Both the position numbers and the translations under genes were made by a program. From NCBI RefSeq assembly GCF_032854445.1, contig NC_088297.1:6839740-6903739 (forward strand): a DNA stretch of 64,000 nucleotides, in the 5' to 3' direction. Under the pieces are notes generated by a model. The model searched no databases and had not been told where the DNA came from. It saw only the letters and a program-made list of their open reading frames with translations. Of this stretch, positions 1,802-56,265 are shown piece by piece. This stretch comes from Liolophura sinensis (lineage: Eukaryota > Mollusca > Polyplacophora > Chitonida > Chitonidae). Numbering within the stretch: position 1 is the first letter of the stretch; each line of letters begins with the position of its first letter.

Positions 1802-4800
1802 GTCAGTAGCTTGTATTCATAACTGTTCACATCTGCCTTTAATACTTTCTTGAATGAATCACTGATCACATTTTACCGCCACATCATAAAAAAATGTATT
1901 TCCTATATGTATGTATTGTTGTTACTCATGTAAGTAAAATATCGTTTAAATATTAAACTACAACATTATTGCTAAATATTGATTGAACTGTCACACCATA
2001 CATGTACTCACTTGTAGGGGTTAGCACGCAAACATGGGGCAGTGACCCAATGATCAGAGTGGTCGCTGTTCAAATCCAGCTCCAGCCCCGTACATGGAAG
2101 GTCAGCAGGAAATCTGCGGATAGTCGTAGGTTTCCCCAGGCTCTGCCCGATTCTTCCCCCCCCCCCCCGAATGCTGGTTGCTGTCGTGTAAGTGAAATAT
2201 TCTTGAGCACAACGTAAAACACCAATCAAATAAAATAAATAAATATATCCAGGATGACATTATTTATTTATTTGGTGTTTTACGTCGGTACTCAAGAATA
2301 TTTCACTTAACGACGGCAGCCAGCATTATGGTGGGAGGAAACCGGGGAAACCCACGACCATCCGCAGGTTGCTGGCAGACCTTCCCACGTACAGCCGGAG
2401 AGGAAGCCAGCATGAGCTGGACTTGAACTTACAGTGACCGCATTGGTGAGAGGCTCCTGGGTCATTACGCTGTGCTAGTGCGCTAACCGACTGAGCCACT
2501 GAGGCCCCCAGCACGACATTATGTTTTGAATGATGTGGACATAAAGAATTGTGTTCACCAAATCCACTTTAAGGAACTCAAGATGACATGTACATCTCGT
2601 ATCCTTTTACACTCAACTTGCCCAAAGGGCTGAGGTCCTAGTCTTTTCAATTCAGTATTCCACTATAATGATCAAACTGTCAAAAGTCACGTTTCATTTC
2701 TATTTTAGTACATGTTTTGATATGCTTGAATATCCTGGAAGTTTTGTGACACTTCAATACCTGAGTAGTATCGATTTGTAGTTTTTTTTTTCACTTCTAT
2801 ATATCACAGGAGGGTAAGCTGACAATTGAAACACAATTAATTTCTTAACGTTTTAACACCATAAATATTGTCCTCGTGAAAGAATAAATTGTAACCGACT
2901 GGCTTATTTGATGTTAATTGGTGGTTGATGTTCTCCGGTTGTACGTGGGACGGTCTGCTAACAACCTGTGGATGGTTGTGCATTTCCCCTGGGCCCTGCT
3001 CGGTTTCCTCCCACCATAATTGCTTGTCGCCGTCGTATAAGTGAAATATTGCTAGGCACGGGTACTTAGGAAGGTCTTGCCAGCAACCTGCGAATGGTCG
3101 TATGTTTCTACCCGGGCTCTGCTTGGTTCCTCCCACCATAATGCTGGTTGCCATTGTATAAAGTGAGAAATATTCTTGACTACAGCTTAAAACCACCATC
3201 AAATCAATCAATCAGTCTAATTAGTCAATCAGTCAATCAATGTATCAGATGAATACATAAATAAATGGAAAACTTGTATTCATTGGAACTGCAAGTAAAT
3301 ACATGTAGATGGTACTGTGTGGTGATTGTTTCCAAAAAGTCATACATGTACACATTCATTTATCTTGTATAGTGAAGTTTGAATGGTAGAAATATTTATG
3401 GAAGTGAAAGGTGAAGCATAAACTCAACATGTCATGCATCATAATTCTTATACTACCTTGTGGGTAAGAAGAAGCAAAAGCGTAATTAAGAAAGGTGATA
3501 TCTGTAGAGGGTGTGGGTCGATATTTTGTGTTTTCCTCTGTGCTCTGTGAGGCAGATTTCCCCATCCAGTACACAGTGCTGATATTTTGTGTTTTCCTTT
3601 GTGATCAGCGAGGCAGATTTCCCCATCCAGTACACAGTGCTGATATTTTGTGTTTTCCTCTGTGATCAGTGAGGCAGATTTCCCCATCCAGTACACAGTT
3701 CTGATATTTTGTGTTTTCCTCTGTGATCAGTGAGGGCAGATTTCCCCATCCAGTACACAGTGCTGATATTTTGTGTTTTCTTCTGTGATCAGTGAGGCAG
3801 ATTTCCCCATCCAGTACACAGTGCTGATATTTTGTGTTTTCCTCTGTGATCAGTGAGGCAGATTTCCCCATCCAGTACACAGTTCTGATATTTTGTGTTT
3901 TCCTCTTGATCAGTGAGGCAGATTTCCCCATCCAGTACACAGTGCTGATATTTTGTGTTTTCTTCTGTGATCAGTGAGGCAGATTTCCCATCCAGTACAC
4001 AGTGCTGATATTTTGTGTTTTCCACTGTGATCAGTGAGCAGATTTTCCATCCAGTACACAGTGCTGATATTTTTGTGTTTTCCTCTTTCCAGTCCCTGGA
4101 GGATGAGATGCTGAAGAAGCGTGAGAAAATGCTACACTTACCAGCAGAAACGTCGGGAGGAGCAGGAGCGTAAGCGGCAAGAGAAAGAACAGGCTGAGGC
4201 GGAGAGGAGGGAGAAAGAACGGTAAGCTGAGTTGGGAATGAAGTCCAGAGCTTGGTGGTGGGATGCTGTGAGGGAAGCGGGCAGTTACGGAGGAGCGTAC
4301 AGTGTGAAGGACAGACTGATGTTCGATGCATCTCAGCAGAAGGGTTGTCACAGATCATCAGTAGTCTGTAATGCCAGCTGTACTCATTGTTTGTGTCATG
4401 GATTTGTTTAAATATGTTAACTCAGAGAGGTTTCTGCGTTTCCATGCAACTGTAGCAGACACCAATACATGAACATAGTGCTCAAATGTATGTGTACATC
4501 TGGGATTTAATAGAACACCTATCCGCTTTCCTCCCACATTTGTTACTGATGTCATGTCATCTCAGTGTACAGCTGCAGGTACATTTGGTACTGATGTCAT
4601 GTCATCTCAGTGTACAGCTGTAGGTTATGTGTTACTGACATCATGTCCATCTCAGTGTACAGCTGTAGGTACATGTGTTACTGAAGTCATGTCATCTCAG
4701 TGCACAGCTGTAGGTACATGTGTTACTGATGTCATGTCATCTCAGTGTACAGCTGCAGGTACATTGGTTACTGACATCATGTCATCTCAGTGTACAGCTG

Positions 4801-41298: not shown

Positions 41299-41622
41299 AT
41301 GTTTACAGCCCATAATCTGATTTAAACTGAACAAAAATATAAACGCACCAACCTATATATCCAAATCAAACTGACCATTATTTGGAAATGGTCAAACCAG
41401 TGATATATTTGTTTAATGGGTCCTTCGTGTTGCACAACACAAGTGGTCCCATTGCAATTGACCATTCTGAGTGGGTATACTCATATGCTGAAAAAGTCAA
41501 CCCATGTGACCAATGGGCCGTGACAGTGCGATGGTCAGTGTGCGTGAGCAACACGCAGACATTCCTTACAGCTTGCTCAGTAAAAGACCACCCCAAAGTG
41601 TGGATTTGTGCCACATGCCAAC

Positions 41623-41731
41623 ATGCCACAGATGTCACAAATCATGAGGGAGCGTGCCATTGGCATGCTTAATGCTGGGTTATCTGTTACTGCTGTGGCC
41701 TATCTGTTATCTGGTTATCTGTTACTGCCAC
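41623..41731 (+). pseudogene. Tc1-like transposase, N-terminal fragment
   Basis: Starts MPQMSQIMRERAIGMLNAGL then SVTAVA, the usual start of the paired helix-turn-helix region of Tc1 transposases. After that the sequence becomes a small duplication of TTATCTGTTACTG (41680-41692 and 41715-41727) and then the inner transposon. The rest of the DNA-binding domain is missing. Confidence 0.85.
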
Positions 41732-41739
41732 CCCAAGAA

Positions 41740-42070
41740 ACATAAAAGCATTGGACCAATATTGGCACGCTGACACGTATTCAATTGGGCCATTTGGGGA
41801 AACAATTATCGGACCAATACACGTTTTGCACAGTGGCGCAGCACTGGTCCAGTACTGGTTTGGGAATTTCACCATTATGTATCCATTTTTAAACATGCAT
41901 TGGACCAGTGTAGTAATACATTGATTGGCCCAGAGTTGCATAAAGTTATTAGGCCAATACAGCGCCAATCTTTGTAAGAATAGGGCCAGTACAGCACATT
42001 TAGAATTGGGCCAATGTACTCTTTGCTCATAACTGGTCCTAAACAGATATAGTGAAGACCCAGAATGCTT
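41740..42070. repeat. Left subterminal repeat zone of the CACTA-type element
   Basis: About ten copies of a short word in both orientations, including TTGGACCAATATTGG, CGGACCAATAC, ACTGGTCCAGTACTGG, TTGGACCAGTG, AGGCCAATAC, GGGCCAGTAC and TTGGGCCAATGTAC. Such clusters at transposon ends are binding sites for the accessory protein in plant CACTA elements. Confidence 0.75.
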
Positions 42071-42475
42071 ATCCCCAATCAAATCCATTGCTTTTCCTAG
42101 GAATAAAAGTAATCATTCAGCGACATTTGTTAAATTGATATTTGCAGTAACCCTACCTTGATATTTTTTTAACCTTTTTCTATTGGTCGACAAGAAAGCA
42201 ACATATATGCCAAACAGTACGACTGTCAAAACCTTTGGCTTTAAGGTTGAAAATGTTACCATAGCAGCTCTTGGCAAAAGGTTTGATGAAGAATACAAAC
42301 TGGTGGGAGACCAGTGAATCACCAAAACAGTTTCAGAACTTATTTACATTTATAAAGTAAGGAACTCAACCAACATGTATATGTAAGTTTCAAATAGTTT
42401 AATTGATCCCACCTGCACCAATGGCACAAAAAGAGTTGACTCTTAAATCAAGCACAGGAAAATAGCTCGGACCGA

Positions 42476-42666
42476 TCAAAGTTCATTTTCAGTGATTTCA
42501 GCGATTTTGCTGTTTTCCGAAACAGTCACTACTGACACAGTGGCTTGAGACTCAGCGCGCCTCTTCCTGCCCCCATGCCTGTCGCAGGCGTTGCGAAGCC
42601 ATATCATCATTTCTCTCTCGACCTGGTCTTCTGTTGTTTTGAAGGCAACGTTCTTCAGCATCGCTT
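42476..42666 (-). CDS. DUF4806 gene last exon
   Basis: The acceptor is TGTGTTCACAG|AA. It encodes AMLKNVAFKTTEDQVEREMM, IWLRNACDRHGGRKRRAE and a short Ser/Thr/Val tail, then TGA at 42478-42476. The intron before it is 3 kb and contains three foldback elements. Confidence 0.92.
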
Positions 42667-45600
42667 CTGTGAACACACATTTCACAAGGCAAATTAACTG
42701 CCAGTTTCTTTGAATACAACTGTATCGAAATAACTACACGTCAACGTGTATAGAATCATCCTAGGCAAACTGAAAGTTTCTGAGAATAAGCCCATTTAAA
42801 GAAACAAAACAACTGGCTTTCAAATTATCCAATTCGAGATGGTTTGAGATCACGGGATGTCTTTATGAGGCCAGCTTGTACTACTGATCATGTGAATAAT
42901 TTGTATGCATTCACACTCAAAAAATATCACATAGGCCTTACTCAAGATGCTGAGGGGCAAGCATACTTAAACTAAAGGGGCACCTCAGACGGTTGGGTAA
43001 CCTAACTTTACCCATTTATAGCTACTTCTGATAAAAATGGCACTTTCAAGGCAAATTTTGGAAGGACAGTGTCAAGAGGTCGGATTCTGTAATACGGTTG
43101 ATTAGAACTGGTCATAATTTTTCATGAACATTATTCATTCGCCTGTTTGCCGATCCCATTCTGCTACTCTTGTCGGAATAAAATACTGTTTATTGTTTTC
43201 TCACAATAGCGTACCTTATACCGACGACACAACACAGCATCAAGACAAACACCAGTGTAAATGACGTCACAGTACAATGCACAAGTGACATTAAGCCATC
43301 TTTCCTACGTCGGTTACACTATTAAGGTTTTGTATATGCCGCTCTTTTAATGTATCTGTTTTTCCAATCTTATAAAATGACAAGTTCAACTAAATCCCTT
43401 TATAGTATGTAACGAGTTTTGTAACCAGCAGTAATTGACCAATCCAATAACCAAGAAATTACTTAAAGGGGCTATACCGGATATTTTCAGCAAAAAAAAA
43501 TTGATAGTCACAAATCAATCAAATCTTATGTTATTGGTAAAGAACTAGGCAAAATAATACTTCCCACCAAAAATCAGCCTCATCCATGCACGTTTTAGCC
43601 CGTTGATTAAGTTGATAAAATTGCTAATTCGACCCGAATTAACGGTTTTATTGAACTTTATCTGCTGTTCTAAACACTAAGGCGTGCATCAATGAGCCTG
43701 ATTTATGGTAAAGGGCAATATTTTGGGCTGTTCTTTAATAATGGCATAGGATTGGATTGATTTGCGACTACCACTTCCACTTTTTGCTGAAAATGTCCGG
43801 CATAGCCCGTTTAAAAGAAAAGAAAATAAGGCCTCACCGAAGTTTATCGTCATATGAAAGGCAATAAAAAATTGTTGGTAAAAATATTTTTATTATTTTT
43901 CTACGATTTTTCCTCACCAGGTTATAAGCGTTTGAAATTTTAGATTCAATGGAGGCCTGTTTCGGCCATAAAAAGGTCCAGTGATGTCATAATTCTGCTT
44001 TCATTTCTGTAGATCATACATGTTGGATGGATACTACGTCTTCGATTAAAATGATTTGGGTGATATTGGCTTGCGTATTAAATCATGAAAGTTTGATGCC
44101 GGAATAAACAATTGCTGCGGAATTAACAAATTCCTGTGACGTCACTGGTTCTTCGGTTCTCAATAGGCTTCCATAAAGTCAAATTTTCAAATCCTCATAA
44201 CTTTGTAAGAAAAAATCGCAGACAATAAATAAAAATATTTTTGTGAACCATTTTTCATTTGAGACTAACTTGTTATCAACCCTTACTATGCTTTTAAGGT
44301 CTTTGTGGCATAACAAAAGAATTGGCAGAATACTCTGTGTTCAATTCGGAATTGCAATACCCTTTGTATAATTTGCGAAATGTAGCAAGGTACCTAAATA
44401 TAGAGTCAAAATGAATTGTATGTCTTTTCTCGGAGTTGTTAACTTGCTATAATAGCAATGTTGATGAGTGGAAATTCTAATATTATAATTTGCGCCCTGC
44501 ATACTATTACAGGTACTGTTGTGTTATTTGTGTCAACTAACAGCCTAGATAATGGATTATCAAACGGAATTAAGGGAGAAGCCAAGCAACGTTCCAACTG
44601 GATAGGCAAAAATGAAACTGGTCCCATTTTATCGGGCTATTTTCAACAGTTTTAACATGAGTGAGATAGGAAAATTTCAATTTTGGACACCCTTCTCAAG
44701 AAAAATGACCTCTAAACGGGCAAATTGGACACCTTGCTTCAGATTTCTGGCTAAACCCCTGAGCCGAAGGCTGGAGCCCAAAAACAACTGGTCAATTCAT
44801 CAAGGCGACCTGATGACCCTGACAGGATTTATTATGGGAAATAGAAATAAAAGTCTCCTTCAGGGCCTCTAATCAACTACATAATGGACAATCAGTATGG
44901 ACCAGTTGTTTGAGCGTTCATGCCTGCCGCTTTGCCTGTCAAACAAAAGGTCAATTCTGTAAGATAGTCCATTATTTAAGCGATTGAATCACCTGACAGG
45001 ATTTTATTTCATTAAGTGTAAGAAAACTAAAGAACCACAATTATCCTAGCTTAAAGGCCTTTCATTCCACCTGTATAGTTGCACGCACTTTGAAATTACG
45101 ACTTGCAACACCACAATCAACTGCCAATTATGGTAGTTACTTGGAGCTGCCATTTTTGATCTCCTAGACTCTTCTTCTTTGTAGGTAGGGATTGTTTCAA
45201 GCACTTTTTATGATCAGGACAGTTCAACTTATATTTCTAAAAGCACTGTTACGATCTCCCATCTCTATTAAATGTAACAAAAAGCAACAACAATATTTGA
45301 AGGGGATAGTACATAAAGAATTTTTTTAACTTATTCCACGACAGAACATAGTTCAGTTCAATGTTGGCAGCTCCCAGTAATTAGCATAATTAGCAGTTTA
45401 CCATGCTACCAAAAGTACAACCAACTATAGAATGAGGAACGAAAGCCCTTTTAGCTAGGATACTTGTGGTTCTTTAGTTTTCTTCCCCTCAAAATACAAG
45501 ACTGAGGTAAAACAGACAAAATGAACATTCTTCAACTCCAATTAGGTCATGAAAAAAAAAGAGAGAATGAAAAACTATAATATTTAACCCACCAATCACC

Positions 45601-48600
45601 AATGCGATAGATGGGAAGCAAATTGCCAAGGACCAAAATGCAGGCACATAAACTTTGTCCAGGATACATTAATATCAAAAACAAATGCTCAGTAAAATGC
45701 TTACTTTTCATTGCAGCGCATAGGCGCAGACCACCAAATGCTCTCTTCGGTTCAGTCTGCTGACCTTTCCAGCCCTTCCTCCCTGCCCAATTAAGGTTCA
45801 GAGCAACATTATGGGATATGGTTTGAGACATCACCCGTCTGGTCGCCTCCTTAAGATTAGAACCCCCGATGAGGCTGAGTTGATTGACCTACAATAATAT
45901 TACATACTGGTATAATAACCTTGTGTTGTAAAGCCAAAATAGCATTGATGGTTACCTATATTGTTTTTTTTACATCCTGAAGGTGATGCTAAGTGAAAAT
46001 TTTCAAGCTGTAAAGCAATACAGTTGTTTGCCAAAAGTTGGCTAGGGTGGTGATGGGTTGGGTGGGAGTCAAGTGCTACTTCTTTGAACATGAAGCTGCG
46101 CTAACAAAAAACCCCTGGACCCGAGGGTTCAAGTAATACTAAGTGAATTCATCCCTCCTAATGCTTATCTGAGCCATGTTTATATGTGAGTATAAATTGT
46201 GCTTGAATAATAAATTGAAATTGAAATTATCACTCTAACTCCCCATACTAATTCTATTCATCAATCCTTAAGGTGAAACATCTCATGTTCCTGAAATATC
46301 ATCTTGCAAATTCTGTGATGTTACTCAAGCTGCCTTACCTTATTTTCTTTCTTAACGGCACCTTAACATACTGCCACACCCAACCCCCTGTCCATTTTCC
46401 ATAATAGACCATCTTTATGTACTGCCATTGCCCTTCCAATCCTCTTCCGTTAATCATTATTATGTACCAAGCCTCTCCCCTAAATCCCCCGCCGCTGATA
46501 ATAGTAGGCCTAATGTACCATGCTTCCCCCCCCCCTCCCCATCCAAATCAGCCGCTGTGGACCATATTTATCTATGTACTCCCTCCTCCATAGATTATTA
46601 TGTACCATAAGACCTCCCACCCATGTCCCCCGCCCTCTACATCTACCGGCAGCCATAGGAAGGTAGAAAAAACACATAGAATAAAGTATAAGGCACAATA
46701 GTGACATAAAATTGCCATACCAGTACAAAAAAATTATCAGCCCACCAAGTTTCATTGAGGTAACTCAATTGGTTTTGACCACGACAATACCATTTGGAAA
46801 ACACTGTAGCAGCTGGATCCAAATAAGAAATCCATCATGTCCACGAAGTTTCAACTCCGGAAATATCTGCAGCCATGTAACACCCAAGACGAGATGACCA
46901 TCCCAGCATGGCATCCGTTTTGTTTACCACGTTACAAGAGAATCCTGTGATGAGTTTAGGAGCAGATGCGTTGACAAGCTCTCTTGCAGGTATAGGCACA
47001 TACTGTCCAAAATCGGACAAGAATTTACTATCATTAATATCTATCATAATAGGGCAAAAACTTCAGAAATAATTGAAGCAGCATCTTGAAGTACGAGAAG
47101 ATGAGTTGTCAGCTTAAGCTTGCTTACAGATAGATGAACAGACAGACATCAACAAACTTACCAGTGATTTAGCAATTTCTTTATCTTCAATTTTGTTTTC
47201 CATTCCATCCAGCTCTTCCATGGACTTTATTGGAAAGGTATCCATCACATCTATGGTGCCACTTGATGCCTCTTTGCTGATCATCATGTTCAGCAGCTGT
47301 CTTTGGGACAAAACCTCTTTGCGGACTTCATCCAAAGATACCTGGACAGCACTGATAGCCTTTAGTATTTCTCTGTCTGTGGCTGAAAAAAGAGCATTAT
47401 AACTATATTTAATGTACACGCTGTTTAGATTTAATGAAATCTGTCTACAGCTAGTGTTATTTGTTGTCACACAACTTTCAAGATCAGGCTGTTGATTTTG
47501 TTACATCATCGGTCCTTTCAGTGCGATGTGTCAGTGCGTGATGTACCAGTATTTATGCTGTTGACTAATCACATTACCTGCACAATGATTGTCTTTTTGC
47601 ATTTTTGATACTATTTTGTGTACTTCACGCCTGTATTCTCGAATTCCGACTCATATCTATCGACCACAGCCTTGTGGCACTTGAATGTAAACAAATCTCC
47701 CTTGCTTGTCGCCCCTGCTTTTCAGAACGTCGCGACGTCATCAGTACGCTGCTTTATTCATACTTGCCCCTGATGACACATATTCCAGTTGATGCTGTTT
47801 ATGGTTGTTTTAACAAATATTAAAAATGTGGCATTTGACCTTGAACTCCAAAAACAAGCCTTACATGTTAAATTTGTGTAAGATAGGACACGGTACCTTG
47901 TCGATTGTCCAGTTGTATACCAGCAGGAACATGGAGGCTTGGAAAAGGTGGGACTGGCGGGGCTGGGGTGAGATGTTTGCGTTTAACTGGTCCGGCAACA
48001 GCTTCATCATCACCATCATCGTCTGTGTCGCTGTATAGTGTTCGCTCTTTGCGCCTGTACAGTAAGGCAATCGGTGCATTATAACATGTGTACATTATTG
48101 TTCACTATCAAATTATGATAGTGCTCTTGTCAGAAAAAAAATGCGAGTTTGGAAGCAGCGCGATCTTAATTTGCTCTGTGAAGCAAGGCTGAGATCGTTC
48201 CTTTCAGTATTTCTGTTATATGATGGCGAGTCAGTATTTCTGGGCATCCCCGGGTGGAAGAAACCCCTGGAAGAAACCAGGGTAAACCACCGACCATTGG
48301 CAAGTCACTGACAACTTCTCCACATAATCAAAGGTGGACAGCAGGAGGTCTCAAACGAATTGCAGTCCATTAATACCAATATTACCTGATTTTTCTTGGT
48401 ACTTACAAGCGTTGTCGTCCACCTTGCAAAAGATAGCCTCATAACCAATCAGCCAAACGGCCTGGAATGAGAGAAACATTCCCTGACACTATGGGAAATC
48501 GATCCCGGGATGTCTTGACCAGCACTTCAGCAGCCAAGAGCGCTAGCCACTACTCCATGGCTGTGGGCGATAGTGTTTTAAGTTTTGATTTGTTTCTCTT

Positions 48601-50321
48601 TATTCTTTACAGGAGACTTATTGTTGTAATAGTGTTGTTTTAATGCTGTTCTCTCTATGTACCTTCTTGCACCCTTCCCCATTCCAACTTCATCATCTGT
48701 TTGTATGTCTGAGGTTTCCTCGGCCATTCGAAGCTTTCTTCTGCCATCCTCATAGCTATCTGCATGGAAAATGCAGAACATTTGACTGACTGACTGATTA
48801 CAGTCCATTTTTATTACACCGTACTCATGAGTATTTCCCTTATATGACAGAAGGTCAGTATTTATGGTTGGGTGGAAAAAAACCAGGGAAAAACCACCAG
48901 TTGACCACCAGTTGACCTTTGGCAAGTCACCGACAACTTCCCTCCTGTATTATACAGTGATGGAATGCGCTAGTTCTCCAGCAAATGCGGCTCTGTTTTC
49001 ACAGCGCTACTAGCATCATTGTTCTCGAAAAGTTTGAATTTGCATCCCAACATGTTGATCACTGGCTTCCCTGCGCCACGGCCCACAGGCAAGAATATCT
49101 GAATTAGGCGATAAGATGATAGATCAATTGTGGTTTAAACCTGACTGACCAATTGTGGTTTATCCCAGCATATTCTGGGACTTTGCTGTGGGGGGCATTT
49201 GTTCCCCAAGGCCTGGCACCTATGCATTTCATTTTCATATTGTCCATTGTTATGTGTAAACAATACAGCGAACCGAGTTTTCTCAATTTCTTAGTTGTCA
49301 ACACTTAAACAAGTATTTATTTTTACCTAATTCTGTTCAAACCGCGCTGCTAAGGGGCATGTGTGGTAGTATATTTGCAATCACATGAACAGTTAGAATA
49401 AAACTCTGTCTGAGGTAAGTGACAGGGAGACATTTTCATTCGGCTGTGTGAGCCAAATATCCCAATGTCTCACACACGTCACTGCTTTGGTTATTCTCTT
49501 TCCGCTGTACGTTCATTTTGTTTTGTTTTAACATCATTTAAGTATTCAATATTACCTTACATGTATTTGCACAACGGCCACCAACTTCATACATTGAGGA
49601 AACTAGAGCACTAGAAGTAAACCATTGCTTTGTTGCACACTTGTGATACCAGTGAAACATTGCTGCACCAATATAAGATGCTTAATTGCTATCGTTAGAG
49701 GCTATCGGTGCAGCACCTGAGATGAATTTTTTGCATGACACTTTCTGCACGACCTGTAAAACAATGCATGGAAAACCTGCCTCAAGTCATTCATCTGAGT
49801 GTGTTGTCGGCGAACATGATTGTAATGATTCACCATCACAGAGGTTTTTTTCATTTTTTGATATCAAAAAGGAATACATTGGAGCTATTTTCTGATGGTT
49901 TGAAGGTCAAAACTGCCCCATGAATGTACAGTTCTGCAGCCTGCAGGTAACAAGAGACTAATTAATATGTGGTTTACACGTCTTAAAATGGTTAGTTTTT
50001 CCCTTTGAAGTATATGCAGCATTATTTAGAACCTTAGAATCACCATTTTCTGAACTGTATGTCTGACATGTAATATAATGAGTTAAAATTAATAATGAAA
50101 CGTTTTACATGATACTCACCACAAGCAGACAGGATGCGAATGCTGTAACTTGGCCAAGTTTTGTCAGCTGCTACTCTGTCTTTTACAGATTTAGTTACGT
50201 TAGACATATTGCGATACGGTGGCCAAAAAGTTTTTGTCTGAGACTGTAACCAGTTGGAAGCAACAAGCTCTACTTCATCCGTCTCCACAAAAACTACGAC
50301 GGCATACATTGTCAATGACAT
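42476..50321 (-). CDS. DUF4806-domain protein, six exons, 350 aa, carried by the transposon
   Basis: Minus-strand exons 50321-50120 (the exon starts at 50327 after a good acceptor), 48759-48663, 48054-47897, 47382-47162, 45888-45705 and 42666-42476. All phases fit and the total is 351 codons with stop. Order: N-terminal domain (MYAVVVFVETDEVELVASNW, FWPPY), a short charged block DSYEDGRRKLRMAEETSDIQ, an acidic patch SDTDDDGDDE and basic Pro-rich linker, a predicted coiled coil (about 155-190), then DUF4806 (about 198-330: FPIKSMEELDGMENKI, VNQLSLIGGSNLKEATRRVM, LNLNWAGRKGWKG, WLRNACDRHGGRKRR). This order is common in expanded families of cnidarians, amphioxus and molluscs. Its function is not established. 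It is transcribed in the same direction as the transposase downstream of it in the element. I infer an accessory DNA-binding role. Confidence 0.9.
43467..43810. mobile_element. Foldback MITE with TTAA target sites
   Basis: 344 bases flanked by TTAA (43463-43466 and 43811-43814). The tips GGGGCTATACCGGATATTTT and (opposite strand) CGGGCTATGCCGGACATTTT both continue into TCAGCAAAAA. Similarity between the arms goes on for more than 130 bases, so the whole unit can fold into one hairpin. TTAA points to a piggyBac- or Kolobok-type source. It lies in the last intron of the DUF4806 gene. Confidence 0.9.
43856..44265. mobile_element. Second foldback element
   Basis: Arms about 43856-43956 and 44170-44262 are imperfect inverted copies (GTAAAAATATTTTTATTATT and CACAAAAATATTTTTATTTA on the other strand, then TACGATTTTT/TGCGATTTTT and TTATAAGCGTTTGAA/TTATGAGGATTTGAA). 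Exact ends and target duplication are not clear. It is directly adjacent to the TTAA MITE. Confidence 0.6.
45020..45484. mobile_element. MITE with about 50-bp inverted tips
   Basis: The tips AAGAAAACTAAAGAACCACA at 45020 and the same sequence inverted at 45465-45484 are identical for 20 bases. Similarity continues through TATCCTAGCT and CTTTC. Further in, ACTGCCAATTATGGTAGTTA and ACTGCTAATTATGCTAATTA pair across the centre. No coding capacity. Confidence 0.85.
45705..45888 (-). CDS. DUF4806 gene exon 5 (domain core)
   Basis: The acceptor is TATTATTGTAG|GTC and the donor is AAAA|GTAAGC. It encodes VNQLSLIGGSNLKEATRRVM, SHNVALNLNWAGRKGWKG and AFGGLRLCAAMK, the most conserved part of DUF4806. 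Confidence 0.94.
46371..46650 (+). repeat. C-rich degenerate repeat
   Basis: A loose repetition of CCCCTCCCCATCC-type and TATGTACCAT words in intron 4 of the DUF4806 gene. A minus frame at about 46835-47047 is open, but I see no splice or family support for it. Confidence 0.5.
47162..47382 (-). CDS. DUF4806 gene exon 4 (coiled coil, start of DUF4806)
   Basis: The acceptor is GCTCTTTTTTCAG|CC and the donor is TCACTG|GTAAGT. It encodes ATDREILKAISAVQVSLDEV, a coiled-coil-like run, then DTFPIKSMEELDGMENKIED. Phase 1 in, phase 0 out. Confidence 0.93.
47897..48054 (-). CDS. DUF4806 gene exon 3
   Basis: The acceptor is TTACTGTACAG|G and the donor is CAAG|GTACCG. It encodes RRKERTLYSDTDDDGDDEAV, then a basic and proline-rich linker (VKRKHLTPAPPVPPFPSLHV). 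Phase 2 in, phase 1 out. Confidence 0.88.
48190..48560 (-). mobile_element. SINE-3-like element
   Basis: On the minus strand it begins with a tRNA-like head (GAGTAGTGGCTAGCGCTCTT and B box GGGATCGATTTCC), followed by a body ending in CCTGGTTTCTTCCAGGGG and GACTCGCCATCATATAACAG. A related tail fragment is at about 48800-48970. Both are in the DUF4806 gene introns. The family is not SINE-1 or SINE-2. Confidence 0.6.
48663..48759 (-). CDS. DUF4806 gene exon 2
   Basis: The acceptor is TTTTCCATGCAG|AT and the donor is AGAAG|GTACAT. It encodes DSYEDGRRKLRMAEETSDIQ then TDDEVGMGKGAR. Phase 1 in, phase 2 out. Confidence 0.9.
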
Positions 50322-50327
50322 GTATGT
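50120..50327 (-). CDS. DUF4806 gene coding exon 1
   Basis: The acceptor is TTCTTATTTACAG|A, then the start codon at 50321 (MSLTM, with a second in-frame ATG four codons on). The donor is TTGTG|GTGAGT, phase 1. The acceptor before the ATG implies at least one non-coding exon further upstream. Confidence 0.88.
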
Positions 50328-50850
50328 CTGTAAATAAGAAAGGATTCACAAATTCAATACATTTACACAAATCACAATTACATTTGGGGTGTATGTCACA
50401 TACAACATTGTTCTTCAATTCTTTTATAGTCCTTCACTAGACTTTTAGAAACAATAATTAAACAGTGTCATGATTAGGCTAGTTCAAGCTTGGAAAGGTT
50501 TAAATACATGTATGTACAGTATGTAGATATTTATTGTCTAATAACTGAAGTACATTTCCATTTTCAATGACAATCCCTCTAGTTGGTCCTCTAATGTTTT
50601 CACAAATATTAGAAACTTGAACCACAGTATCATTAAATCAATATACATACATACATATATATTGGCAATGTCTGGGAAATAGAAAGTTATGGTAAGGCAG
50701 GCATTTGGGGCTTTCTCAACAAAAAGATTTGATCAAATTATCGCTCTTGGATTAAATTTAAAAAACACACAAAAAAGACTATTGCTACTGATTCTACATG
50801 TATAAGACTCCAACCCTGCATAATGTCACGTGTATATCACTTTTCTGTAC

Positions 50851-53046
50851 CTAACAGCTGTGAATAAGAGGAATTGCGACATGTACAGTTTTATATGGCA
50901 ACAACACATATTTCCGAACCACTTCCTGGATGGGAGCAACATGGAGTTTGTCACAGAGGTCGGTGACCATGTGGATGTTGATTTCACTTGAATTGAGAGG
51001 GTAAGAGAAAAATGGTCTACATGATCTGAATGACTGATAAACCACCAGTACATCTCCACCACAATACAAAATATTTTTGATGAGGCAAACCTTTGACCCT
51101 ACCCCAACACAATTGTTGCCGGTTTCTGTTACAACACAGAAATGGTCCAGTTCAACTTCTGTGTATTGGACACAGTTCTGGTATTTATATCCCTGTGGAA
51201 TTGGACCAAGAAAATGTTGCTTTTTCAGTCCACCATCAGCAGCTGTGGGCAATGTAGCAGCTGAGGGAGATATCTGAGAGATCTCTTTCAGTCTTGCGAC
51301 AAGCTGCTGTAATGGCAAGCTTTTCTTCCGCACAAGCCGCTTCAGAGTTTTCAGGTGGTTTTCAAAAGGAAATGCTGATATTGTGTCAAGAGGACCATGT
51401 ATTTTCACCTCTTGAGCAAGGTGGACCAGATTATGGACATTGTACACGACCTGGTCAGCACCGTAAAGGTGCGCAAAGTGTTGGACAAAGCTTACTAGAA
51501 GCTCATGTGCATAGCCCACTAACTGATAGCAGAGAGACGGACTTATAAGTATGGTAATTCCGACTGAGAGCAGAAGAAAGTTTTTGTACAACTCATCAGC
51601 GATACTGTCCTTTAAAACAACAGTTCCTGTGTACAAAAGAAACATGCGGAATTCTGTTGCCTTCCATCGGTCTATCTCTGACAGTGAACGGGGTTTTCGT
51701 GCAAACTCCTTAGGTATAAATTTACACATGTGAAGCAAGGCAGCTGAAATGCGTAATTTTGTCTGAGGCCCTAAGCGAATTGTAAGTGGACCCCTTATCA
51801 ATAACACAAGGATACGACGCATTACACCGAGGCACACTAAGTGCATATAGTCAATTGGAAACTGTGACACCATAGAGAACAAATTGCAAAGCGGACTTGT
51901 TCCAGTGTGATGGTTCTTATCTTCCTGCTTTTCAAATGATTCATCAGTTCGCAGCGTTGCATGAGTTTCAGGAAATGTCATTTTCCCATTATACACGCCT
52001 TTTTGCGTACATTTTTCACATGCGGAATAACCTGCGTGACACTTGATTTGTTTGATAAAGGCACGTGCTGGTGCATCACAGATGAAGGATGTTATGTTAA
52101 TCTGGTAATGCCTACCTTTGTATTGTATCCCCTCTAGTTTTAGCTTTGTATACTCTGTGATAAAATCTTTCAAAAATTCAGAAGGATCCTTTGGTTTTTC
52201 TTGTCCAACAAACAACCCAATGACAAACGGCTGGCATTTTGCTTCATTTTGTATTATTCCCAAAATAGGCCACAGCTGAGTGTTACTACTTTTGAAAATG
52301 GGGAGTCCATCCGTATTCACCTGAACATCTATGACTTTGATACATTCCATATTTTTGTTCAATTCTATCCTTCGAATTACACAACCTTGGAGTCCAAAAT
52401 GATAGTAAGAACCCCCACATATCTGCTTTATCCCCACAACATGTCCAGTATCCAAAAGAGTCCTGGGGTCTTTAGGTAAATTTGGATGATGGTTTCTAAG
52501 TAAGACTAATAGCCTGCCAACTGCTGTGTGAGTGATGTTATTTTCAACTGCCCATGCAGCTAACAAATCTGACGACAAAACATTTTCTTCCTCTGAATCA
52601 GTACTACCGCAATCATTAAATCTATCACTGTCTACATCCATTGTTGGTATGCTGTTAGGAAATGTCCCTTCATTGTCTATTATGTCATATAATACATCAT
52701 TGGTTTCTGCTTTGTCTGTGAATGTATTATTTTGTTTGGAGCTAGCATTAATGTCGGTAGTGGTATTGTCAACGGAACAAGTGGCAGTATTGATAGAGAC
52801 ATCGGCTGTAGTACGGCTACTACTGCCAATGCCAGATGGAGTAGTACTACTGGTACTTCCACTAGATTGATCATTGTTAATACAGACAAATTCTTGACCT
52901 TTCACCAAACCATGCTCCAAAGCTGTCTGTCTACTTTGCTGGCCTTTAAGCTGACATGACCTTGAACTATTTTGAGCAATGCTTATATTGGACAGATATT
53001 TATTTACATTTTCATGTATCCGCCTTCTTTTAGTCCAGTACGACAT
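50851..53046 (-). CDS. tnp2/CACTA-type transposase, intact single-exon, 731 aa
   Basis: An uninterrupted frame from ATG at 53046 to a stop at 50851. The N-terminus is basic (MSYWTKRRR) and followed by a Ser/Thr/Asn-rich low-complexity tract (about 55-150). Then come a conserved LLRNHHPNLPKDPRTLLDT block and a putative RNase H-fold catalytic region: NTDG with D246, ICDAPARAF with D324, then C343 and C346 in YSACEKCTQKG. DYMHLVCLGVMRRIL follows at about 399, with KEFARKPRSLSEIDRWKATE and YNVHNLVHLAQEV further on, and FPFEN with E562. These blocks are typical of the transposases of animal EnSpm/CACTA-like elements. Assigning individual catalytic residues is inference. No stop or frameshift is seen, so the element may be young or active. 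Confidence 0.93.
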   Translation of the reverse strand: MSYWTKRRRIHENVNKYLSNISIAQNSSRSCQLKGQQSRQTALEHGLVKGQEFVCINNDQSSGSTSSTTPSGIGSSSRTTADVSINTATCSVDNTTTDINASSKQNNTFTDKAETNDVLYDIIDNEGTFPNSIPTMDVDSDRFNDCGSTDSEEENVLSSDLLAAWAVENNITHTAVGRLLVLLRNHHPNLPKDPRTLLDTGHVVGIKQICGGSYYHFGLQGCVIRRIELNKNMECIKVIDVQVNTDGLPIFKSSNTQLWPILGIIQNEAKCQPFVIGLFVGQEKPKDPSEFLKDFITEYTKLKLEGIQYKGRHYQINITSFICDAPARAFIKQIKCHAGYSACEKCTQKGVYNGKMTFPETHATLRTDESFEKQEDKNHHTGTSPLCNLFSMVSQFPIDYMHLVCLGVMRRILVLLIRGPLTIRLGPQTKLRISAALLHMCKFIPKEFARKPRSLSEIDRWKATEFRMFLLYTGTVVLKDSIADELYKNFLLLSVGITILISPSLCYQLVGYAHELLVSFVQHFAHLYGADQVVYNVHNLVHLAQEVKIHGPLDTISAFPFENHLKTLKRLVRKKSLPLQQLVARLKEISQISPSAATLPTAADGGLKKQHFLGPIPQGYKYQNCVQYTEVELDHFCVVTETGNNCVGVGSKVCLIKNILYCGGDVLVVYQSFRSCRPFFSYPLNSSEINIHMVTDLCDKLHVAPIQEVVRKYVLLPYKTVHVAIPLIHSC

Positions 53047-54069
53047 ATTGTCAACTGACTTTGTTTAATAAGTCACATGTACTCACTATTTTAGTGATTC
53101 ACTGATTGCAATCTGTGTCAATAAATAAGCATGGCATCAAAAACGAAGTAAAGAATGCAGCATGTCTGCTTTAGCCTTTACAATTTCAGTGCTTCCCAAT
53201 GATTGACAATGTCCCCATGTAAATTTATCCTTGTCCGTGCCAAACTGATAATATAGGTAGACAGGGCCTTCGTTTGGCCTACTCGTATGTATCTATAATC
53301 TAGAAATTGAAAATGGAAAGTGAAAGTGAAATGTACTGAATTGCCGTCACTCATTATGTTTTTGTAACAGTCTGTAGTTTTTACGTTTTCGTGATAAAAG
53401 TTCGAGACAATCTTACCGTAGCTCTAGGTAGCAGCCGACAGCTTTCTTGGCGCCAGATCCCAGAATTCACTGTTACAGAATGTTCGTTAAGGAATGGCTA
53501 TCCTCCGGTCCGGCATTGGCCCGGTATCACGCCGGTGAGCGCGCCGGAACAGAACGTCTCGTACATTTTAGGTCTCGTACTTTTGTGCTCGTTAACCCAA
53601 CAGTACTCGTCAGCCTACATCTTTCGGAGATTTCGCTTAACTCCGGTCAAGGTACGGAAACTCCGAACGTTTTTCCGAGCGCTTACGAGCGAGTCAAATC
53701 GGAACATCGCTCGGAGGTTTTCGCTCAACTCCGGTCAGGTGCAACAAGGCACGGAAATCCCCGACCAATGTTTCGAGTTGTGCGAAAACAAAATATGTCA
53801 TATTTTTATAATATCTACATGCAGCTTTAGCTCCAGAAAACAGTTATTTTCACGTTCCATGTAAACAGAAACTCACATTTGGTTATGTTGAAATATCTCA
53901 AGTTTAAATCAGTTGTAATAATCTGCCACTGTATGCTGATAAAAAATAAATAGCCCCCCCCCTAAAAAAAGCAAACAAACAAAAAAAAAAGCAGAAAAAA
54001 GACACACACACACAAAAAATCAAAACAAACAAACAAACAAAAAACAAAACACAACTCAATATTATTCTT

Positions 54070-54440
54070 TTTATTTCTTTGGACCCAGGCCTGTGCAAAC
54101 TTATCTAAAGAAAATTTTGCGCTTCGTGGGACTTGACGGGATTTTTTAAAGTCTCCATAACGGCAAAGCTTCATTGGGTCAGCAACGGGCAAGTTACGGC
54201 GATATTTAATGGCTCAATAATGGCCAGCCAATAATGGCCCGAGGGTGGGTCAGTACATGCTTTGAATATCGGTAAAACTAAACTGGGCCAGCGCTGGGCC
54301 AGATATGGCGATCATAACACTGGCAAAATAGCGGCAAGCCGGAAATGGTTCAGCACTGGCCTTGTTAAACTCTCCAACTGCCGGTACTGCCGTAACAAAC
54401 CGGTTAAGTCCCGGAATTGGACCAGTACATTCATGTTTAT
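54070..54440. repeat. Right subterminal repeat zone of the CACTA-type element
   Basis: Related words: TTGGGTCAGCAACGGG, AATGGCCAGCCAATAATGGC, GGGTCAGTAC, ACTGGGCCAGCGCTGGGCCAG, TTCAGCACTGGCC and TTGGACCAGTAC. They are fewer and more diverged than at the left, but of the same type. Confidence 0.65.
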
Positions 54441-54441
54441 T

Positions 54442-55263
54442 GGGACGTGTGACCACGCCCGCACAAGACCAGCACATGCGGCTCCAACACCAGCAACCAG
54501 AACTGCTGATGAGACTGTCGGTCTTCACAACAGGCGGATTTCAGCCCAGACAGTCAGGAACCGGCTGCGGGAGGCTCATTTCCGGTCACGTCGACCACAC
54601 CAGGGCATCGGCCTAACGGTAGCCCGACTTCGGACACGACTGGACTGGGCCAATATTCATGTGCGCTGGACACTTGCTCGTTGGAGGAGTGTGCTCTTTA
54701 GTGACGAATCTCGCTTCCAGCTGCACCATGCTGATGGCAGAGTTCGGGTTTGGCGCCGTGCTGGTGAGCGGTATGCTGACGCTAATGTCCTGCGACGTGT
54801 GGCTTATGATGGTGGAAGTGTCATGGTGTGGGCAGGCATTTGTCATGGACAGCGCACACGTTTGCATTTCATCGACGGCAACCTTAATGCACAACATTAC
54901 AGAGATGAAATCCTTAGACCTATTGTTGCGCCCTTTGTGGTGCTCCATCATTTGACTTTCCAACACGACAACGCCCGCCTACACACTGCCAGGATATGCA
55001 GGGACTTCCTTGAGGAGGAGGATATTCCTGTCCTCAACTGGCCGCCGTATTCACCAGACATGTCACTCATTGAACACCTCTGGGATGTTCTGGATAGGCG
55101 TGTCCGCCATCGGGTTCCAGTTCCCCAGAACATTCGCCAAAGGCGAGTGGCACTCCAGGAGGACTGGGACAACATCCCCCCAGCCCACAATTGACAACTT
55201 GATGTCCATGCGTCGCCGGTGTACAGCTCTACGCGTGGCTAATGGTGGTCACACGCGTTACTG
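54442..55263 (+). pseudogene. Tc1-like transposase, DD34E catalytic part, frameshifted
   Basis: It starts GRVTTPAQDQHMRLQHQQ in one frame and passes near 54495 to another with TADETVGLHNRRISAQTVRN. The catalytic residues are all present: D in VLFSDESRF, D in QHDNARLH and E in MSLIEHLWD, with 34 residues between the last two. A second frameshift near 55180 moves the end (IDNLMSMRRRCTALRVANGG, HTRY stop) to another frame. It cannot be functional as it stands. Confidence 0.93.
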
Positions 55264-55990
55264 ACGTCTGTGAACTTGGCCCATTGACCCCCACTGTCCT
55301 CTTCCTGCCATTACTGCAGGGCTGTTGCTTGAGAATTGATTAATATTAAAGCTGAATTGTTCAGAAATATGTCCCATTGTTTTGGGATATGTACTATATT
55401 TTGTGACATAAAAATAACAGAAAATATTTGTTCGTGCGTTTATATTTTTGTTCAGTGTAGTAACACTGAAGTGTCATGTGATCTAGATGATTCAGACCTT
55501 AATGTGTGTACTTTTGTCATAACTCTGTTCGCTGCGGAACTCGTCACACGACGAACCCTCTGTCGCTTCCACTCCTCACTGTGACGTTGATTTCGTGTTA
55601 TCTTCTCTCACACTCCTTAGCAGTTTCACTGAATGTTGGTAATTTTGACAGGAAGGTGTCCGCACTAGTCTCCCCAGCAGCCGTCTCAACTAAACTTGGT
55701 GGAAGTAGAACACAGGAAGTCACTTCAGCTGTATGACTGACATTAAAGTCTGCAGCAGGTTAATACTGGGGCACATGTCTAGTTGGATAACTTGGGTACA
55801 TGGCAGTCATTACACCATGTATCGTGGGATTGATACCAATCGCCTCCTGAAAACAAGTGTATTATATCTTTAATGTTCACATTTTCAAATTGGTGTTTAA
55901 GAAAGAAGAGTTTCAAAATGATGGAATACTTGATTTACAAATATTTTGATCACATTCGGGATATTATTTTCGCAATGACATGTGAACTTG

Positions 55991-56265
55991 GGGCCTCCGT
56001 GGCTCAGTTGGTTAGCGCTCTAGCGCAGCGTAATGACCTAGGAGTCTCTCACCAATGCAGTCGCTGTGAGTTCAAGTCCTGCTCATGCTGGCTTTCTCTC
56101 CGGCCGTATGTGGGAAGGTCTGCCAGCTACCTGCGGATGGTCGTGGATTTCCCCCGGGTTCTGCCCGGTTTCCACCCACCATAATGCTGGCCGCCGTCGT
56201 ATAAGTGAAATATTCTTGAGTACGGCGTAAAACACCAATCAAAAAAAAAAAACAAACAAAAAAAA
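55991..56265 (+). mobile_element. Full-length SINE-1
   Basis: A complete copy with an A-rich tail. CATGTGAACTTG at 55979-55990 recurs as CATATGAACTTG at 56266-56277, a 12-bp target duplication with one change. 56280-56830 shows no feature. Confidence 0.96.

Follow-up and report, generated by a model that had tools for sequence, protein, structure and literature searches.

What separates the two halves of a Tc1 transposon in the mollusc Liolophura sinensis, what did the insert bring with it, and in which order did the pieces arrive? The locus lies in a stretch of 64,000 nucleotides (the window; C3:6839740-6903739 of the 609-Mb genome that we searched), where two Tc1 tips face each other across a second, larger element. 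We consider it very probable that an autonomous 12,713-bp animal CACTA element (TRC, or CMC-EnSpm) entered an older Tc1 copy, that the junction bears a filler scar, that the insert carries a DUF4806 gene alongside that of its transposase, and that the foldbacks within it are older than its spread. Such nesting of DNA transposons is commonplace and the arrangement belongs to a known kind; what deserves further attention is the pair formed by the transposase and the DUF4806 gene.

The tips of the Tc1 copy lie at 41325 and 55457, and each adjoins a TA target duplication (41323–41324 and 55458–55459). The inverted arms, which begin at 41323, are 36 nt long and 89% complementary. The left part (41325–41699, plus strand) is 96–99% identical to close relatives, whose matches end at 41699 (position 375 of the query). 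The right part (54445–55457, plus strand), from whose first base the matches of the other copies resume, contains HTH_Tnp_Tc3_2 and DDE_3 domains. With its TA target, terminal inverted repeats (TIRs) and Tc1 transposase domains, the outer element is an unremarkable member of the Tc1/mariner family. It was compared with 15 other copies from the same genome, all of them insert-free close relatives, and more distant copies (~65–84% identity) were left out. Aligned to the joined window flanks, 13 of the 15 run without a break across the insertion site, so the window copy has been interrupted; the other two (L031 and L033) have deletions of their own at the site. An earlier note on this DNA had proposed such a division from the facing tips next to TA, and both halves do match the continuous copies. 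The empty copies therewith provide a clean ruler for the nested insert.

The inner element occupies 41732–54444 and has both of its genes on the minus strand. Searches with its two inner edges show that other copies of the element likewise begin at 41732 and stop at 54444, so that the borders are not unique in the genome. They are flanked by a 2-bp target duplication, AC, at 41730–41731 on the left and 54445–54446 on the right. The left TIR (CCCAAGAAACAT..., 41732–41760, plus strand) and the right TIR (CCCAATAAACAT..., 54416–54444, read on the minus strand) match at 23 of 29 positions.

The right junction passes directly from inner element to Tc1, and the left one does not. The Tc1 sequence that lies between the counterparts of 41699 and 54445 measures 96 nt in 12 of the 13 copies that cross the site and 97 nt in the thirteenth, where the window has 30 nt plus the AC duplication. 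A filler of ~30 nt (41700–41729, plus strand) has thus replaced ~96 nt of Tc1, and the clean left border implied by the earlier note did not hold. Part of the filler was copied from nearby Tc1 sequence: positions 41713–41728 are an exact 16-nt copy of 41678–41693, and 41701–41709 a 9-nt copy of 41681–41689. The exact left break is uncertain by GCC, the last bases being identical in the filler and in the Tc1 sequence that it replaced. Filler derived from the immediate neighbourhood is typical of microhomology end joining. The scar may instead have been present in the Tc1 copy before the inner element arrived, which would then have hit it by chance. Deletions in or near the same stretch in four other Tc1 copies (L021, L026, L031 and L033) speak for this order, as does the AC duplication, whose being whole on both sides means that the loss began somewhere other than at the end of the element. 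We nevertheless regard a pre-existing scar as rather unlikely, since only coincidence would then make it stop at most 5 bp from the insertion point, and since no other scored Tc1 match extends beyond 41699 into the filler; for the latter reason there is also no sign of a scar shared among copies.

Besides the copy in the window, our set from this genome comprises ten copies of the inner element: nine that are roughly full-length and a 766-bp deletion derivative; with the window's, there are ten full-length copies. Eight of the nine others align end to end with it at 98.6–99.7% identity, and the ninth (C2b) aligns piecewise at ~91–97%. All 11 copies start with CCCAA. The right end, ...TATTGGG, is exact in 10 of 11 (that of C2b is inexact and was left unscored), and matching 2-bp duplications flank all ten scorable copies (AC, CC, AA, TA, CT, TC, GT, TT, CT and GT). 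The 766-bp derivative (L019, C4:19448743-19449508) arose by internal deletion, has retained its two ends and is flanked by a GT/GT duplication; it represents a non-autonomous form. Maize En/Spm also has deletion derivatives, to which L019 is the counterpart, as well as subterminal repeats. A further, near-complete copy with an intact transposase frame (L049, C10:24869900-24874000) has its left part cut by a 200-N assembly gap. Copy C3b is shorter than the window's inner element by 94 bp. The region around 42903–43254 is a spot of repeated loss: these 352 bp are missing exactly from the sister copies C8 and C10b, C13 is without an overlapping 198 bp (42839–43036), and C2b without 47 bp (43233–43279).

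The larger of the two genes (50851–53046, minus strand) is a single exon encoding a 731-residue transposase. A DUF4218 match in this protein is weak (28.9 bits, cut-off 27). The sequence contains, in order, D, D, C(2)C, H(3)H and E, within motifs that start at residues 244 (NTDG), 323 (CDAPAR), 343 (CEKC), 538 (HNLVH) and 561 (FENH). The putative catalytic residues were assigned from this order, which defines the CMC group (PMC12730594). The motifs DG, CDAPAR, CExC, HNLxH and FEN recur in a 697-residue open transposase frame at a diverged locus (L037), which is 40.7% identical. The transposase frame is open in six of the ten full-length copies, in addition to the one in the gap-cut copy.

Motifs, ends and duplication together are the reason for filing the inner element under TRC/CMC. 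The copies examined have the CCC...GGG ends of TRC, or animal CACTA (CMC-EnSpm), elements, and the 2-bp target duplication is likewise that of the class. Plant En/Spm elements have CACTA ends and a 3-bp duplication; the inner element, with its CCCAA ends and 2-bp duplication, does not fit that pattern. By these sequence features the element is a new family of TRC/animal CACTA elements, the Transposase_21 domain being the one feature that we did not find. CCC ends with 2-bp target duplications have been published for animal TRC elements (PMC1636069; PMC4298943).

Among described elements, SmTRC1 (PMC1636069) shares the CCC ends and the CACTA-type transposase, and a 2-bp target duplication was reported for 7 of 14 of its copies. 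It was likewise found inside other repeats and compared with empty copies, and its transcript has two tandem open reading frames where the inner element has two genes. It differs in its length (~4.7 kb, against 12.7 kb), in its 54-bp TIR (short and imperfect here) and in its Transposase_21 domain, whereas the inner element has DUF4218 only and adds a DUF4806 gene; for the other protein parts of SmTRC1, that paper reports no detectable conservation. The Hydra element Spongebob_HMa/EnSpm-4N1_HM (PMC4298943) also has a CCCA-type end and a 2-bp duplication and was filed as TRC. Its consensus is 5,836 bp long, its exact transposase could not be read, and no second gene is mentioned in the part of the article available. 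Maize En/Spm resembles the inner element in having two gene products, TNPA and TNPD (as summarised in PMC1636069).

The second gene lies downstream of the transposase gene on the same strand and has five coding exons, at 50120–50321, 48673–48759, 47162–47382, 45705–45888 and 42476–42666 (the last including the stop codon), with GT/AG at all four introns. These are the exons of model A, which encodes 294 residues; in model B (304 residues), exon 2 ends at 48663 and exon 3 starts at 47402. In the predicted protein, DUF4806 is recognised with a score of 39.6 bits (cut-off 25). Both genes are intact, by model A, in four of the ten full-length copies (the window, C11, C2a and C10b). The earlier note had described a 12.7-kb element with related inverted tips, subterminal words and two complete genes, and each of these parts was found. 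A sequence search of the Protein Data Bank with the second-gene protein gave no match. DUF4806 is described as having a BEN-type DNA-binding fold, as a BEN subtype (PMC11075544). In Hydra, a list of overrepresented domains places both DUF4806 and DUF4218 with those of transposases, and the portion available says nothing of a transposon gene (PMC7642931). In PMC5704228, as far as that article was available, BEN turns up only among the references. In the literature on DUF4806, on the BEN domain with EnSpm, CACTA or transposon, on a second EnSpm protein and on Transposase_21 with DUF4218, as far as these sources were available, we found no paper that pairs a transposase with DUF4806; Repbase, which lay outside this search, may describe the pairing.

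The subterminal words offer a possible target for such a DNA-binding protein. We counted starts of GGNCCA and TGGNCC, so that one TGGNCCA site counts twice, and used 2000 base shuffles as control. The left 450 bp (41732–42181) are dense in these words, with 15 starts against a shuffle mean of 0.40 and maximum of 5; the right 450 bp (53995–54444) contain 8, against a mean of 0.55 and maximum of 7. The intervening 11,813 bp contain 20. In plant En/Spm, TNPA binds the subterminal repeats and gathers the ends, and to our knowledge TNPA and DUF4806 are not related. By analogy, the product of the second gene is probably a DNA-binding partner of the transposase.

Diverged relatives of the transposase are listed at ~33–74% identity by piece, and eight loci were fetched (the survey leaves out C75, C8:22.3 Mb, C3:16.4 Mb, C3:18.08 Mb, C3:18.205 Mb and ten array fragments at C3:18.09-18.17 Mb). 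In all eight, the transposase is followed on its own strand by a homologue of the second gene (tblastn E up to 0.01). Six of these loci had been chosen with a second-gene match already known and are hence not independent; the other two, L037 and L038, sister copies that are ~98% alike, were chosen without such a signal and have the homologue as well. The gene might alternatively be a host gene captured by a single element and without function in it, an idea that gains something from zebrafish, where the annotation treats DUF4806 genes as specific to that species (PMC11075544). The recurrence of the pair in eight of eight diverged loci, the two unselected ones included, makes such a capture very improbable, and we retain the partner gene as our reading.

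Further rearrangements were seen among these relatives. In L038, a 637-residue open frame with a DDE_Tnp_1_7 domain (piggyBac-type; positions 2399-4309, minus strand) lies in a stretch that breaks the fourth exon of the second gene and is absent from L037; this is another nested insertion. At C3:18088883-18168433, a related transposase is represented by ten fragments of equal score, ~8.74–9.13 kb apart, suggestive of a long tandem array whose unit includes a piece of such an element. At C3:16385383-16404678, second-gene-like exon pairs occur five times at a spacing of ~3.9–5.5 kb, possibly a tandem array of a related element.

Several observations weigh against our account of the inner element and its gene pair. 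Transposase_21, reported for SmTRC1, is not among the Pfam matches up to E 10, which include DUF4218 only; we take this as a matter of the reach of the profile and not as exclusion from TRC. A genome-wide profile search for DUF4806 returned no match, the window included, and detected no control, and for that reason the second gene rests on its assembled protein. The CCCA...TGGG ends with a 2-bp duplication were found in none of the six diverged relatives examined for them (of the eight), in stretches that may not reach the ends. The subterminal words are sparser at the right end, and the transposase structure predicted from its sequence alone was of no use (mean predicted local distance difference test score, pLDDT, 33.7). 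Signs of selection on the two genes are also weak. On the favourable side, compared with the copy that differs by 3.8%, the transposase has changed by 1.9% (34/1782) and the second-gene exons by 2.1% (19/885), roughly half of the 4.0% (273/6884) seen in introns. The differences by codon position are 9, 12 and 13 in the transposase and 7, 3 and 9 in the second gene, and flanking stretches differ by 3.0% (22/741) and 7.7% (88/1147). Given this codon pattern, the unequal flanks and the fact that the 3.8% diverged copy is itself broken, selection on both genes is only hinted at.

Divergence gives the relative ages of the two elements. The inner copy differs from eight of the other full-length copies by 0.22–0.66% and from the ninth by 3.79%. 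Because eight of the nine are this close, the element appears, from its sequence, to have moved recently. The terminal branch of the window's inner copy is 0.0013, and that of the Tc1 copy, with the filler left out, is 0.0166; the inner branch is ~thirteen times shorter. This upholds the proposal in the earlier note that the inner insertion is much younger. The argument given there, that the Tc1 copy is badly frameshifted, did not survive comparison: on the right, its frame stays open as far as 55194, insertions or deletions lie near 54489, 55176, 55199 and 55342, and frames of more than 300 residues exist in only 3 of the 15 other copies. Since the other 12 also have no such frame, broken frames are a property of this Tc1 family and not a mark of the window copy. 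Measured against the majority base, the window Tc1 differs at 23 of 1387 columns (1.66%, again without the filler); 14 of the 15 others differ by 0.75–1.98%, and L032 by 3.96%.

The remaining question of order concerns three foldbacks, at 43463–43814 (foldback 1), 43863–44259 (foldback 2) and 45012–45492 (foldback 3), all of which sit in a single intron of the second gene (42667–45704). Each folds better than all of its 100 shuffles (z = −12.7, −3.4 and −9.2), in agreement with the earlier note, which had counted at least three foldbacks in the introns of the inner element. The note took them to be miniature inverted-repeat transposable elements (MITEs) that arrived last, after the Tc1 and the CACTA-type element. 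The first two steps of that order stand, supported by the 13 empty Tc1 copies and by the branch lengths; the third does not. All ten full-length copies of the element carry all three foldbacks, which were therefore already present in it when it began to spread recently. They differ from those of the window by 0–5 positions each in the eight close copies and by 7, 12 and 11 in the diverged one. Insertion of three MITEs in place, after the CACTA element had entered the Tc1 copy, would fit the position of the foldbacks in the inner intron and the resemblance of foldback 1 to a TTAA-type MITE, but with the same three foldbacks in nine other full-length copies MITEs as the latest arrivals are refuted, and we give that order practically no credence.

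What the foldbacks were before that spread is less certain. TTAA stands at each end of foldback 1. Of 30 genome matches to its end pattern, 26 lie in copies of the element and 4 elsewhere, against none for a reversed control. Among these four, L046 is a 247-bp foldback in its own right, again with a TTAA on either side; for the other three, the fetched stretch shows a single end or no clear partner for it, and no empty site came to light. Foldback 1 is thus probably a MITE, and is the only one of the three with signs of being an independent one. The arm of foldback 3 has 37 matches, 28 in copies of the element and 9 elsewhere against 8 for the reversed control, so that nothing outside the element rises above chance, and foldback 2 has only two short matches outside (63 and 55 bp). 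These last figures speak for foldbacks that are not MITEs and arose inside the element, perhaps with a role such as folding or splicing of its long intron. The ends of foldback 1 and their dispersed matches argue the other way, and missing copies are weak evidence, given that very common words are passed over in the DNA search; an internal origin of the foldbacks seems to us possible but doubtful. Related repeat pieces at 48206–48318 and 48830–48940, in introns of the second gene, and at 56196–56230, just outside the Tc1 copy, perhaps belong to a dispersed repeat resembling a short interspersed nuclear element (SINE).

The following sequence of events is consistent with these observations. The inner element, already containing its foldbacks, would have moved by cut-and-paste into a Tc1 copy that had already diverged, generating the AC duplication. 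The transposase, as a DDE enzyme, may cleave the element at its CCC ends and integrate it with a stagger of 2 bp. The BEN-like DUF4806 protein may bind the GGNCCA-type subterminal words and bring the ends together, in the manner of TNPA in plant En/Spm. With the insertion, or through an adjacent break before or after it, ~96 nt of Tc1 would have been lost at the left and ~30 nt gained, partly from Tc1 just upstream, by what was presumably an end joining of the microhomology type.

For this genome, the locus points to a family of 12.7-kb animal CACTA elements that is very young, has intact genes and may still be mobile. The accompaniment of the transposase by a DUF4806 protein in diverged families of the same genome makes the role of this little-studied protein family directly testable. 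We suggest, tentatively and at somewhat less than even odds, that animal TRC elements carry a conserved gene of the DUF4806/BEN type whose product binds subterminal repeats and is needed for movement, a counterpart of TNPA of independent origin. If this is true, the DUF4806 genes scattered among animals would in part be transposon genes or their derivatives.

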